DNA of 64,000 nt from an uncultured beta proteobacterium (GTDB taxonomy: Bacteria; Pseudomonadota; Gammaproteobacteria; Burkholderiales; Burkholderiaceae_E), in contig CAIZNI010000011.1 in NCBI GenBank assembly GCA_903934295.1, positions 33,056-97,055 on the forward strand, written 5' to 3'. The notes below the pieces were generated by a model. It worked only from the letters and a program-made list of their open reading frames with translations. It did no database searches and was not told the origin of the DNA. The translations under genes and the position numbers were made by a program. Numbering within the stretch: the stretch's first letter is position 1; each line of letters starts with the position of its first letter. Positions 3,240 through 19,011 of this stretch are shown here, one piece after another.

Positions 3240-3486
3240 ACAAGCGTCATCCATGACCGCTCGAACACACTGGCAACCCCGCTGTCATGGCGCTTTCGCG
3301 CGTTAGACCGGAGGCTTTGCGTCCCCGCCTTTCGACGGGTTTGCCCTCAAAATCAGTTGACTTGCTAAGGGGGGATTGTGGGACCGATCGACGCATCAAA
3401 GTGTGAGAAAACGCACGTTGCCAGAGGCGTCCGGTGCGATGCTCGGGATCGATCGGGCGGGGCCCCTGCACAGGATTCCGGAAATG

Positions 3487-14278: not shown

Positions 14279-14863
14279 TCAGCCCCGTGCGGTGAGCCAG
14301 GCACGCGCACGCGCGACGCTGGCGGGCGCGCCGTATAACCGCAGGACACCGATCTCCAGGGCGGCCGCGATGCCCAGGCTGCCGACGGCGATCGCCTCGA
14401 CCACCGCGAGTTCGGTGACCACGACCACATCGCCCGGCTCGGGGCCGTCGACGTGCAGCAGCGGGTTGATCCGGCCATCCTTCGTCTCGAAACGGTTCCA
14501 CATCGCCGGTCCGAGCAGCACCACCGCCAGGTTCTGATCGGCGGCGGCGGTATCAGGCGCAGCCAGCCGCCCCGCGAACCGGCGCAGCAAGGTGTTCGCG
14601 CGCAGGTGCCTCATCATCGCGCGCGCCTCGGGCGCCAGGTCTGCGCGCTGCGCGATCGGATCTCGCGGCAGCGTGCCGGCGAGTTGGGCCTGCCAGACGG
14701 CGGTGCCCACCTGCGGTGACTGGGGGTAGGCCAGTGCCAGGACAGCACGCTGTGTGGCGGCCGAGGTCGGGTCTTCCAGGCCGCAGGCCAGCGCCGCCGA
14801 CCCGGTTGCCGCGCAGGCCAGTGCGAGCGCGGCAATGACGCGCCGCCCCGGGTGACGCCTCAC
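14279..14863 (-). CDS. Exported protein of unknown function in the DUF3604/HupE operon
   Basis: A 194-residue protein starting with GTG at 14863 that overlaps the DUF3604 stop (GTGA). A signal peptide ends near ALAC (about residue 27). I do not recognise a named family. The C-terminal half contains DGPEPGDVVVVTELAVVEAIAVGS and RLYGAPASVARARAWL. The central part is Ala- and Arg-rich and helical. Tight coupling on both sides indicates a role linked to DUF3604 and the parvulin, probably in the periplasm. Confidence 0.7.
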   Translation of the reverse strand: MRRHPGRRVIAALALACAATGSAALACGLEDPTSAATQRAVLALAYPQSPQVGTAVWQAQLAGTLPRDPIAQRADLAPEARAMMRHLRANTLLRRFAGRLAAPDTAAADQNLAVVLLGPAMWNRFETKDGRINPLLHVDGPEPGDVVVVTELAVVEAIAVGSLGIAAALEIGVLRLYGAPASVARARAWLTARG

Positions 14864-16884
14864 GACGGGGAATACCAGATCGGTGAGGTCCAGGCGCGTT
14901 CCTGATGCTTCATCGGGACCTCTCTGGACATCTTGATCCCGAAGCGAAGCTGGTCATAGGCGGTCCAGCGAGGCGTCGGGATCTCGATCACGCGAGCGTA
15001 GTAGAGCGCCCGCTGCGACGCCTTGAAGTCGGGGTCCTTCCAAACGGCCGAGAGTTCCGGCGCACCGATCGTGTTGGTCCATGTCGCGGCCGCCACGTTC
15101 ACCGTGTCACCCACCGGCGCAAGCTTGCCGTTCGCACCCGGCTTGCGGTTGCCCGACCAGACCACGTCATAGACCTTCTCGCGCGCCTCGCCCAAGGCAT
15201 CGACCCATGCCTTCACCACCTGGATGCGGTCGAGATTGGCGCCCACCGGGTCCTTCAGCGCCGCGACCATGAACGTGGGGGCTTTGCCGGACGCGGGCGC
15301 CTTCGCGAGGTCCCCGCCCATCGGGACGCCTTTGGCGTATCCGGCGTCGGCCAGATAGCGAGACTTCGCATCGGCGGCGGTGTAGTCCCAGCCGCCGAAG
15401 AAGCGCACGGTCATGCGCGTGCCGGAGGTGCCGTAGACCTCCTTGCGCATCATGGCGTCCCAGAGTGCCTCGCGGGTGTTCTCGGTCGCCCACACCGCGG
15501 CGTAGCCGGCCGACAGGTAGTGCCAGGTGTAGCGGGTGCGTGCCGGTGCGACCGTGGGGTCCCAGGAACTTTCCTTGGACTTGTGTTCCCAGCGCTCCGG
15601 CCTCGGCTCCTGGATCGGCAGCTTGCCGAAGAAGTTGTCCTCTTCGACGAAGGACAAGGAGGTGTGCACGTCCGTCGAGCCCACGACACCGAATTTGAAT
15701 GGATTGACCCCGAGCTTGTCGTGCTGTTCCAGGCCGCGCTTGAGGCCTTCGCGCGTGTAGCCGGTGCGCATCATCGACTTGGTGAGCGGTCCCCCCTCGA
15801 GCGTGAGGTTGCCGTATTCCCAGCCCGCGGTGCCGAAGTTGGCGAACTCGTCATTCGGCGCAATCAGCGGATTCGTCTCGCTCGCGCCCTTGGTCTGGAT
15901 GATTTCCTGAAGGGGCTCCCAGCGCTGGCGCTTCTGCGCGTATTCGCGTGTCAGCGGGCCGCCGGTGAAGGTGGTGAGCTCGAACATGCGGCCATTGGAG
16001 AGGTTGGCGTTGTGCGGGATCGCCAGCAGCTTGCCCCCTGTCTTCTGTTCGTAGCCCGCCATCCACTCCCAGAGCTTCTCCGGGTCCTCGCTGTTCCAGG
16101 ACGAAAAGGGGAAGAGCTGATCGGCCTTGTCCTTGCCGTCGCGAAACAGGATGTTCCGGTGCAGGTTGTTGCCGCGAGGCACGGTCGACCACTCGTAGCC
16201 GATCATCGCGGTGAAGCGGCCCGGCTCGTTGTATTTCTCGGCAGTGGCGGTGTATTGCTTCCACACCGAGGTCATGACCGGGCCGACCACCTTCGGGTCC
16301 TTGGCGATCGCAGGCATCCGGTTGTTGGCTTGCGCCGAGACGATCTCGCCGGCTGCCTTGGAGGCCTCACTGCCGCCGGCCTTCATCATCTTGCTCCAGC
16401 GTGCCACCGTCTCGTCCGACGTGAAGGCGGGATTGCCTTCGTACACCTGGGCCATCAGGCCCAGCCCTTCGGCATGATCGGTGACGACGAGGAAGTCGAG
16501 CGGACGGCCCATCTTGGCCGGGATGCCCGTGGACGTGACGACTTCCTCGCCCCGCGCGAGGCGGTAGGCCTGCTCAGGCGTGAGGCGGTTGCCGCCTGCG
16601 AATGCATCGCCCGAGTTGGCGGTGTGGTGGTGCGTGTCCCCGAACAGGACGCGCGTCGGGTAGTTGCGCCCGGCATAGGGAGAGTAGCCCTTCGAACGGG
16701 GAACCGTCTCGCTGCCCTTGGGCCGGTTCGACTCGCCATACGAGTCCTCGACCAGGCCCTGGGCGGGCAAGGGGGCTCCCGGCGGCGACGCCGGCTTGGG
16801 CGCTTCTGATGAGGCGCCCAGCGTGAATGCGGCGACCGCGGCAACGCCCCCGACCGCCCCGAATACTCGAACCCATGAACGCAT
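14860..16884 (-). CDS. DUF3604 family exported protein, PHP-like metal-dependent hydrolase candidate
   Basis: A 674-residue protein. The start at 16884 follows AGGAGA at eight bases and yields a signal-like segment MRSWVRVFGAVGGVAAVAA; the longer ORF would bury it. FGDTHHHTANSGDAF near residue 85 and VVTDHAEGLGLM near 135 are histidine/aspartate motifs resembling the PHP phosphoesterase fold. Further conserved blocks are IPHNANLSNG and GSTDVHTSL. DUF3604 proteins have no settled biochemical role. It is the second gene of the operon, 34 bases after the predicted selenoprotein, and overlaps the next gene by GTGA. A periplasmic location is likely; substrate unknown. Confidence 0.88.
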   Translation of the reverse strand: MRSWVRVFGAVGGVAAVAAFTLGASSEAPKPASPPGAPLPAQGLVEDSYGESNRPKGSETVPRSKGYSPYAGRNYPTRVLFGDTHHHTANSGDAFAGGNRLTPEQAYRLARGEEVVTSTGIPAKMGRPLDFLVVTDHAEGLGLMAQVYEGNPAFTSDETVARWSKMMKAGGSEASKAAGEIVSAQANNRMPAIAKDPKVVGPVMTSVWKQYTATAEKYNEPGRFTAMIGYEWSTVPRGNNLHRNILFRDGKDKADQLFPFSSWNSEDPEKLWEWMAGYEQKTGGKLLAIPHNANLSNGRMFELTTFTGGPLTREYAQKRQRWEPLQEIIQTKGASETNPLIAPNDEFANFGTAGWEYGNLTLEGGPLTKSMMRTGYTREGLKRGLEQHDKLGVNPFKFGVVGSTDVHTSLSFVEEDNFFGKLPIQEPRPERWEHKSKESSWDPTVAPARTRYTWHYLSAGYAAVWATENTREALWDAMMRKEVYGTSGTRMTVRFFGGWDYTAADAKSRYLADAGYAKGVPMGGDLAKAPASGKAPTFMVAALKDPVGANLDRIQVVKAWVDALGEAREKVYDVVWSGNRKPGANGKLAPVGDTVNVAAATWTNTIGAPELSAVWKDPDFKASQRALYYARVIEIPTPRWTAYDQLRFGIKMSREVPMKHQERAWTSPIWYSPS

Positions 16885-16918: not shown

Positions 16919-17821
16919 TCAGTCTTGCGCGGTGCTTTTTTCACGATCGCCCGATCGGGCTGCCTGCAGGGCGCGTCGCGCCTCGCCTTCCTGACGCAGG
17001 GCGTCCCGGTTGCCCGCGTCGACCCGCGCGTACACCGCCCGCCAGGCCTCGTCCTCGCTCCACCGGAACGGCGTCTGCACGGTGGTGCGCGGCAGTCGCG
17101 CGGTCTCGAGCAGATCCAGCGCCATGTCCACGGTGGCTTGCTGCATGGCCGCGTCGTCCGGCTTGCCGAAGGGATTGCCCAGCGGAAAGTCGTTGAAGAC
17201 GAAGCGGGCGACGCCGCACTCCTCGACGATGTCGCGGGCCGAGCCGACGACGACCGTCGGGATGCCGTGGCTCTCCAGATACCGGCTGACCAGACTCACG
17301 GTCTGGTGACAGACGGGTCAGAGCGCGGCGATCAGCGCGACATCGACCGCATCTTCGCGGCACAGCGCCAGCACCGCCGGCGCGTCCTCGTTCAGCGTGC
17401 GTTTCTGCGAATACTCGGTGGGCACGCCATAGAACCGCGGGCCCACGCGCCCGATGCGTCCCCGTGCCGCCGCCGCCTGCAGACGCCGCAGCGGCAGGAA
17501 CGACTCGACGTCGCGCGTGTGGGTGCTCTCCTTGTCCCAGGCCAGGTTGTCGGTGAAGAGCCGCTCGGGTGGCGGATCGCTCGCACCCGCCCACACGCCC
17601 TTGCGCTCGAACGGGCGAGGCCGCAGCGCGGGGTCGTCGTGCCAGGGACTGGCAGTGGTGACCAGCGCAACCCGGCACTCTGACAGCGGCTTGCCCAGCG
17701 CCGAAAACGGCGCTTCGGTGTGATGGGCATAGGCATAGGGCTGGTCATAGCCGAGTGCCGCGTAATACTCGCGCGTGCGGTCGATGTAGCTCACCGCGGT
17801 GCGGTGGGTGGTGCCGGTCAT
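16919..17821 (-). CDS. Predicted selenoprotein, GrdB-like (glycine/sarcosine/betaine reductase selenoprotein B family), UGA decoded as Sec168
   Basis: The ORF track shows two pieces, 17318-17821 and 16919-17299. They are in the same frame and separated by one TGA at 17320-17318. Reading it as selenocysteine gives a continuous 300-residue protein. The joined sequence around the codon is IAALUPVCHQTVSLVSR, placing Sec at the first Cys of the family's CPVC redox motif, and homology continues after it with GIPTVVVGSARDIVE and FNDFPLGNPFGKP. A perfect hairpin with a G in its loop follows at bacterial SECIS distance. Start: ATG with GAGG upstream. In glycine reductases protein B carries the substrate-binding Sec; here no GrdA or GrdC partner is present, so the reaction is unknown. 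The C-terminus is highly charged. It is probably the first gene of the DUF3604/HupE operon, although the GDSL gene lies 35 bases upstream in the same direction. Confidence 0.88.
17289..17307 (-). promoter_or_regulatory. Bacterial SECIS element candidate downstream of the UGA
   Basis: On the mRNA, ACCAGAC and GUCUGGU form a perfect seven-base-pair stem capped by the five-base loop CGUGA. The loop begins 18 bases after the UGA and its second base is G, matching the known bacterial requirement of a G among the first two loop bases at roughly 16 to 37 bases from the codon. The geometry is close to that of E. coli fdhF. The stem lies in coding sequence (HQTVSLV), so it is constrained by both protein and RNA. 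Confidence 0.75.
17318..17320 (-). other. In-frame UGA predicted to encode selenocysteine
   Basis: Codon 168 of the GrdB-like gene. It sits exactly where cysteine-containing homologues carry the first Cys of CPVC, with three more bases of Pro, Val and then Cys in frame. Standard gene callers would stop or restart here. Confidence 0.85.
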
Positions 17822-17856: not shown

Positions 17857-19011
17857 TCAGAAACTCCAGCCGGCGTTGCGCATCAGGGTGACCACCGTGT
17901 TCGCGGTGTCCTGGTGTGCAAACGGGGTCGGGTGCACCGAGTCGGCGAACGCGTACTTGCTGGTGTCGCCGGGGATCAGGGTGGCCGCGTTGCAGATGAT
18001 CGAGTTGCCGATCACATCGCCCGGTGCACTGAATGCGTCCCGTCCGCAGGCGCCGTTGGTGACATTGCTGTAGCCGGCTGCGGCGGGGTTGGTCGCGACC
18101 GACTGGGAGCGGGTGTAATCGTCGAAATAGATCACGCCCGCGGTGCCGGTCAGACCCTGACGCAACTGGTCGTTGAACGCGGTCGTCATCGCGGTCGACA
18201 GGCCGCGCGTGTTCGCATCGAAGGTCAGCCCGAACGGGGTCACATTCAGGTCGCCCAGATTGCGGACCACGATGTACTTGGCGCCACGCGCCACCAGCAG
18301 GGTCTTGATGTATCCGGCCAGTTCCGCACCTGCCTGACCCATGGCCCCCACCGCCGCGGCCGAGGCGGCCTGCACGGCGGCGTTGCCGCCCCCCGCCACC
18401 GTATTCAGGGTGGCCTGCGACCAGCCGGCGATCATGCCCGCACCGACCGCACCTGCCCCGCCGCCGAAGGCTCCGCTCACCGCGCCCAGCTGCATGAAGA
18501 AGTCGTTGCCGCCGCCGTTGACGGTGACCAGATCGCTCGAGCCGAAGGTGCCGACCTTGGTGACGTGGCGGCTCATCTGGTTCTGGATCGAGTCGGCCAA
18601 CAGGCCCAGGTTCACCTGGTTATAGGGCGCCTGCTGCAGCGCCACGCCGTTCGGACCCGCGCCCACCGCGGTCACCCGGCTGCTGCCCTGGGCGTAGTTG
18701 TTGCACGCCGCGACGTTGGTCACCGCCGCGCCGGTCAGCCCGTTGTTGGGCAGCAATCCGGTCTGGGCCGCGCACTGGGCCGGTGCGCCGATGCTGGTGG
18801 CCAGCGCCTCGGTCCAGACCTTGTCGCCCGCGCCGTTCACGGTGAACTTGCCCCCGCCCAGTTGCGCGATCGAGCCCACTCGGTAGGCACCGGCATCGCT
18901 GAGGCTGTCGCCGAAGGTGACGACCTGATTGAACCTGAACTTGTCGCTGTCCCCGCAAGCGGAGAGCAAAGCGGCGATGGCGAGCAACGGAATCAGCTTG
19001 AATGTGCGCAA
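17857..19011 (-). CDS. SGNH/GDSL-family lipase/esterase, lipoprotein
   Basis: A 384-residue secreted hydrolase. The start is a TTG at 19011 with GGAGA six bases upstream; no in-frame ATG precedes the signal. The lipobox LLSAC puts the Cys near residue 19. Block I is VVTFGDSLSDAGAY (catalytic Ser about 36), block III VNGGGNDFF (Asn), and block V ADSVHPTPFAHQ supplies Asp and His. The alanine- and glycine-rich centre (about residues 170-220) is an insertion seen in secreted GDSL enzymes. It probably cleaves acyl esters at the cell surface. It reads in the same direction as the selenoprotein gene, 35 bases away, so read-through is possible. Confidence 0.9.
   Translation of the reverse strand: MRTFKLIPLLAIAALLSACGDSDKFRFNQVVTFGDSLSDAGAYRVGSIAQLGGGKFTVNGAGDKVWTEALATSIGAPAQCAAQTGLLPNNGLTGAAVTNVAACNNYAQGSSRVTAVGAGPNGVALQQAPYNQVNLGLLADSIQNQMSRHVTKVGTFGSSDLVTVNGGGNDFFMQLGAVSGAFGGGAGAVGAGMIAGWSQATLNTVAGGGNAAVQAASAAAVGAMGQAGAELAGYIKTLLVARGAKYIVVRNLGDLNVTPFGLTFDANTRGLSTAMTTAFNDQLRQGLTGTAGVIYFDDYTRSQSVATNPAAAGYSNVTNGACGRDAFSAPGDVIGNSIICNAATLIPGDTSKYAFADSVHPTPFAHQDTANTVVTLMRNAGWSF

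Follow-up and report, generated by a model that had tools for sequence, protein, structure and literature searches.

This study examined a 64,000-nucleotide stretch of DNA (the window) from an uncultured beta proteobacterium, in which a PrdB-like gene on the minus strand (17821-16919) is divided by an in-frame UGA. The reading frame runs for 300 codons (M1 to D300) and is interrupted once, by a TGA at residue 168 (17320-17318); it also ends in TGA, at 16921-16919. The internal UGA opens a UPVC motif (U168-P169-V170-C171; 17309-17320, minus strand), in which C171 is the presumed resolving cysteine, and a 7-bp hairpin resembling a bacterial SECIS element lies at 17289-17307 on the same strand. 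A gene for a GDSL lipase/acylhydrolase (17857-19011, minus strand) is located upstream, 35 nt before the start codon; downstream, a gene for a DUF3604 protein (14860-16884, minus strand) has its ATG 34 nt past the PrdB-like stop codon. Either neighbor possibly shares a transcript with the PrdB-like gene. A c-di-GMP-I riboswitch aptamer was also identified in the window (3269-3355, minus strand, 88 bits).

An in-frame UGA in a conserved coding sequence

We searched the two halves of the reading frame separately against TIGR04483, the model of PrdB. Residues 38-165 matched model positions 19-145 (E 1e-7), residue 170 onward matched positions 151-234 (E 2e-10), and the joined halves matched with an E value of 3e-25. 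These consecutive matches exceed chance by far and bear out the description, in the initial annotation, of two same-frame ORFs split by a single TGA with conserved sequence on both sides, although that description gave no strand. Comparison with the relative L172 revealed 68% identity in the C-terminal half and 60% in the N-terminal half, and third codon positions had changed more than first and second positions. The coding constraint past the UGA equals that ahead of it.

We scanned named genomes for UPVCHQ[ST]V with its first residue encoded by TGA and obtained at least 119 loci, at least 118 of which are true full or partial homologues with UGA in the same column; locus L110 was a chance match and was dropped. 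Among the matches listed, the UGA-form homologues span at least nine phyla (Pseudomonadota, Myxococcota, Actinomycetota, Chloroflexota, Rokuibacteriota, Acidobacteriota, Tectimicrobiota, Thermodesulfobacteriota, and Gemmatimonadetes). Other homologues have cysteine in this column, carrying CPVC or CPIC where the selenocysteine (Sec) relatives carry UPVC, as expected from the earlier proposal that the TGA occupies the first Cys of CPVC and gives the product a UxxC motif. Positions U/C168, P169, V170, C171, H172, and Q173 did not vary across 81 aligned Sec homologues, and outside the UPVC motif Y29, D104, P110, R206, G219, and Q227 were also invariant in this alignment.

Cys relatives exist, including a paralogue in this genome, which would be compatible with a pseudogene or a sequencing error in which a Cys codon (TGC or TGT) became TGA. 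However, the tree placed the window gene inside a 17-row set with 98% support in which every row has UGA, the hairpin is intact, and constraint persists beyond the UGA; we consider such a mutation or error highly improbable. At least two Cys genes (L162 and L175) are nested within Sec groups, indicating that Sec/Cys exchange has occurred more than once. The genome is of the same order as G777, whose gene is identical to that of a named Burkholderiales MAG (L075), which places the window in Burkholderiales.

Two paralogues of the gene were noted in the genome. The Cys paralogue (L028 / L197:1356-2297, G000:C20) carries CPVC and is 47% identical to the window protein; a CaiB/BaiF CoA-transferase gene lies directly 3' of it, and the SECIS-like hairpin is absent. 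The second paralogue (L030 / L170, G000:C47, about 147110-147724) is a Sec gene with the motif UPLCTRAV and encodes approximately 400 amino acids, including a C-terminal extension. Sec was present in 14 of the 14 members seen of its clade, which has a hairpin of its own at about equal distance from the UGA.

A SECIS-like hairpin and the selenocysteine machinery

Numbered from the U of the UGA, the hairpin just 3' of this codon pairs positions 14-20 with 26-32 around a 5-nt loop, CGUGA, containing G22-U23. The loop G-U falls in the invariant Val codon and thus provides no independent evidence. The hairpin was evaluated through covariation, contrast with Cys genes, and synonymous codons. In 38 divergent Sec sequences, the covariation score was 0.265, compared with 0.134 after shuffling (0 of 500 shuffles scored as high), with 30 cells of double-sided changes against 13.2 in shuffled alignments; the covariation collapsed in slid controls. 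All of the inner pairs (15-19) form in 102 of 125 Sec genes, whereas none of the 25 Cys genes has the full set. Part of this contrast stems from amino-acid changes, but the helix is also broken in Cys genes with an identical HQTVSL (L152, L162, and L174). Folding at the hairpin exceeded that of synonymous recodings (mean z -0.85, s.e. 0.10), against -0.01 to -0.32 when five further offsets were tested in this way. The single-sequence folding energy of the window hairpin was not decisive (z -0.9), and the case for the hairpin rests on the comparative tests.

The initial annotation had proposed searching the genome for selA, selB, selC, and selD, and all four are present: selA and selB are clustered with a tRNA-Sec gene (anticodon UCA), and selD was also found. 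Absence of selB and selC, or homologues with neither Cys nor Sec at residue 168, would have spoken against a selenoprotein; both were looked for, and neither occurred. Immediately upstream of selA-selB-tRNA-Sec, we observed a UGSC-family selenoprotein gene with an in-frame UGA (DUGSC; L198:12191-12743, minus strand, G000:C56), and this genome therefore holds further Sec genes. SelB, acting on the hairpin, would bring Sec-tRNA(UCA) to codon 168.

An open frame alone could also arise if this genome decoded UGA as Trp or another residue. This reading is extremely improbable, because, with TGA treated as sense, neighboring genes merge into continuous frames as long as 3,700 codons, the PrdB-like gene itself terminates in TGA, and the homologous residue is Cys and not Trp. 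On the basis of the homologues, the SECIS-like hairpin, and the use of UGA as a stop codon, we rejected UGA-as-Trp decoding together with nonsense mutation and sequencing error. The homologues, the Sec machinery, the SECIS-like hairpin, and the constraint after the UGA agree that codon 168, a UGA where homologues have Cys or Sec, is a genuine selenocysteine codon, and the apparent break is almost certainly read through. We are highly confident that the locus is an intact gene encoding a selenoprotein of approximately 33 kDa in the PrdB branch of the GrdB/PrdB superfamily.

Relationship to PrdB, GrdB, and the marine survey family

TIGR04483 matched all 81 aligned Sec members, and PF07355 matched 54 of the 81 at E < 0.01. 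The window protein is a member of the PrdB-like branch of the GrdB/PrdB superfamily by profile match with Sec in register. The initial annotation had called the gene GrdB-like, which is appropriate for the superfamily but not for the closest relative, as PrdB (TIGR04483) is the nearest model. Alignment to PF07355 homologues had been suggested as a check; residue 168 is indeed Cys or Sec in the homologues, but the window protein itself did not match PF07355 at E < 0.001.

In Clostridium sticklandii, Sec occupies position 152 of 242 in PrdB and position 350 of 436 in GrdB (PMC3091704). U168 maps to about position 149 of 238 in TIGR04483 and near position 350 in the GrdB models, in agreement with that report. 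Similar to clostridial PrdB, the window protein has a UxxC motif with Sec at the equivalent place and resembles TIGR04483 across nearly the whole model; in contrast to it, the window protein is approximately 60 residues longer and falls far below the equivalog cut-off, and the genome has no PrdA-type pyruvoyl partner. With GrdB of glycine, sarcosine, and betaine reductase (PF07355, TIGR01917/01918), it shares a homologous C-terminal Sec-bearing region and UxxC, but it is shorter than GrdB, its match to the GrdB models is confined to their C-terminal part, and the genome lacks a GrdA or GrdE-type subunit.

The best model being TIGR04483 with Sec in register, the protein might be a genuine D-proline reductase subunit PrdB paired with PrdA. 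However, its score of 89 bits stands against an equivalog cut-off of 300, and neither a PF09338 pyruvoyl subunit (PrdA/GrdE type) nor a PrdD-type match was found in the genome, which is 98.5% complete. The PF09338 search was validated by a control: of 13 genomes, 2 gave matches, while this genome and 10 more that carry family members gave none. We therefore regard a true PrdB as very unlikely. GrdA (PF04723) was likewise not found in this genome, in a search in which PF04723 gave no positive-control match, and the GrdA and GrdE (PF09338) partners of a glycine reductase GrdB are thus missing. Because scores are low and partners are absent, D-proline and glycine reductase were both rejected; the family is nearer to PrdB than to GrdB, and the window protein is neither enzyme. 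The earlier proposal of a functional selenoprotein gene outside the glycine reductase context fits these results, with complete Sec machinery and with GrdA and the pyruvoyl subunit absent from the genome. The genomes of two other Sec PrdB-like members (L052 and L047) bear PF09338 pyruvoyl-type subunits elsewhere (L201-L204).

A selenoprotein family named 'PrdB' was cataloged in surveys of the Sargasso Sea in 2005 (PMC1088965) and of the GOS metagenome in 2008 (PMC2398784). The former reported 42 'PrdB' genes with UxxC, the third most abundant among previously known selenoprotein families, and the latter reported 235 Sec and 110 Cys sequences with UxxC. These studies are sequence catalogs without a test of function or partner. 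Similar to the window family, the survey family has a PrdB-type sequence, a UxxC motif, Sec and Cys versions, and hosts outside Clostridia; the two are very probably the same. The gene had been described as a hidden selenoprotein; it is hidden from annotation, but it is not new and adds to a family already cataloged in marine surveys (PMC1088965, PMC2398784). We found no paper on a stand-alone PrdB-like family in the open-licence literature, and a 2026 review enters D-proline reductase under TIGR04483 (PMC13188914).

Gene neighborhood, predicted structure, and proposed chemistry

The survey of family neighbors revealed DUF3604 and HupE beside no other family member. The GDSL lipase and DUF3604 genes are not conserved, and inferring a function from the window neighbors (GDSL lipase, DUF3604, PpiC, and HupE) was abandoned. 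The clade of the window gene has no constant partner among its neighbors, which include AlgH-like, DctP, TetR, and alpha/beta hydrolase genes. In the two nearest relatives of the same order, an AlgH-like (DUF179) gene follows the Sec gene (L194:7742-8353 and L195:3302-3952); it is absent in the window. In a sister clade, the next gene downstream, on the same strand and within about 0-300 nt, encodes a CaiB/BaiF CoA-transferase in 18 Sec and 11 Cys loci, the latter including the Cys paralogue of this genome. This common operon partner suggests one reaction for the Sec and Cys versions. Acyl-CoA enzymes are also present among the family neighbors.

An AlphaFold model of the protein (pLDDT 94.5) places U168 between a strand (161-165) and a helix (169-184), at the helix start. 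The end of a strand and the start of a helix are a usual site for a nucleophilic thiol or selenol. A PDB fold search with the model returned no solved structure at E <= 0.001 and no thioredoxin-fold match, and a PDB sequence search returned no convincing relative.

The gene, its Sec site, the Sec machinery, the SECIS-like element, and the family were computed here; the chemistry is inferred. For PrdB, Sec is proposed to attack the alpha carbon of pyruvoyl-bound proline, and a PrdB Cys then resolves the product to a selenide-sulfide (PMC3091704). In the present case the Sec/Cys half of this mechanism is retained and the pyruvoyl half is missing. Sec168, at the N-terminal end of the helix (UPVCHQ), would serve as nucleophile or redox residue, and Cys171 would resolve it as a selenenyl-sulfide, which cellular thiols may reduce. 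The protein may thereby use Sec, as PrdB and GrdB do, to attack a substrate reductively at a position alpha to a carbonyl, this substrate being activated without a pyruvoyl subunit. We consider this the most likely chemistry, with roughly even chances when set against a redox alternative. FarB/FarE fluoroacetate reductase of Cloacibacillus (PMC10838667), likened here by description, offers a precedent, since a GrdB-like protein of that system acts on an alpha-substituted acid beyond amino-acid reduction; the system differs in that it includes a radical SAM protein as well as a partner of the GrdE type.

A competing reading, to which we assign a smaller but substantial likelihood, is that the Sec protein is a general thiol-dependent peroxidase or disulfide oxidoreductase acting through UxxC, without cleaving an alpha substituent. 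In its favor, UxxC is classically a redox motif, peroxidase activity has been reported for GrdB (as cited in PMC3091704), no metabolic partner is constant in the clade of the window gene, and the first gene upstream encodes a GST at 3 of 81 loci, as it does in the close relative L194. However, the CaiB/BaiF operons of Sec and Cys genes and the acyl-CoA neighbors point to acid catabolism, the large invariant set beyond the motif suggests a specific substrate site, and the predicted model gave no thioredoxin-fold match.

Returning to the reductive attack alpha to a carbonyl, the substrate of the CaiB-linked sister clade would probably be activated as a CoA thioester. Because the neighbors of the window gene are not conserved, a CoA thioester replacing pyruvoyl activation is for the window copy a weakly supported extension from sister-clade operons. 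More broadly, and as an unlikely proposal, such pyruvoyl-free Sec reductases might form a class widespread in non-Stickland bacteria, where they would strip acids of an alpha substituent after activation to CoA thioesters, with CaiB/BaiF supplying the thioester.

The PrdB-like gene is thus ordinary in kind and well supported as a selenoprotein gene, and the apparent pseudogene is settled as a selenoprotein gene, one that standard annotation would overlook or cut in two. 'PrdB' ranked near the top in abundance among the selenoprotein families of marine metagenomes, but the gene described here lacks the partners on which PrdB and GrdB depend, which sharpens the question of the reaction of the family. 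The CoA-transferase operon common to Sec and Cys members offers a first testable handle on that reaction.
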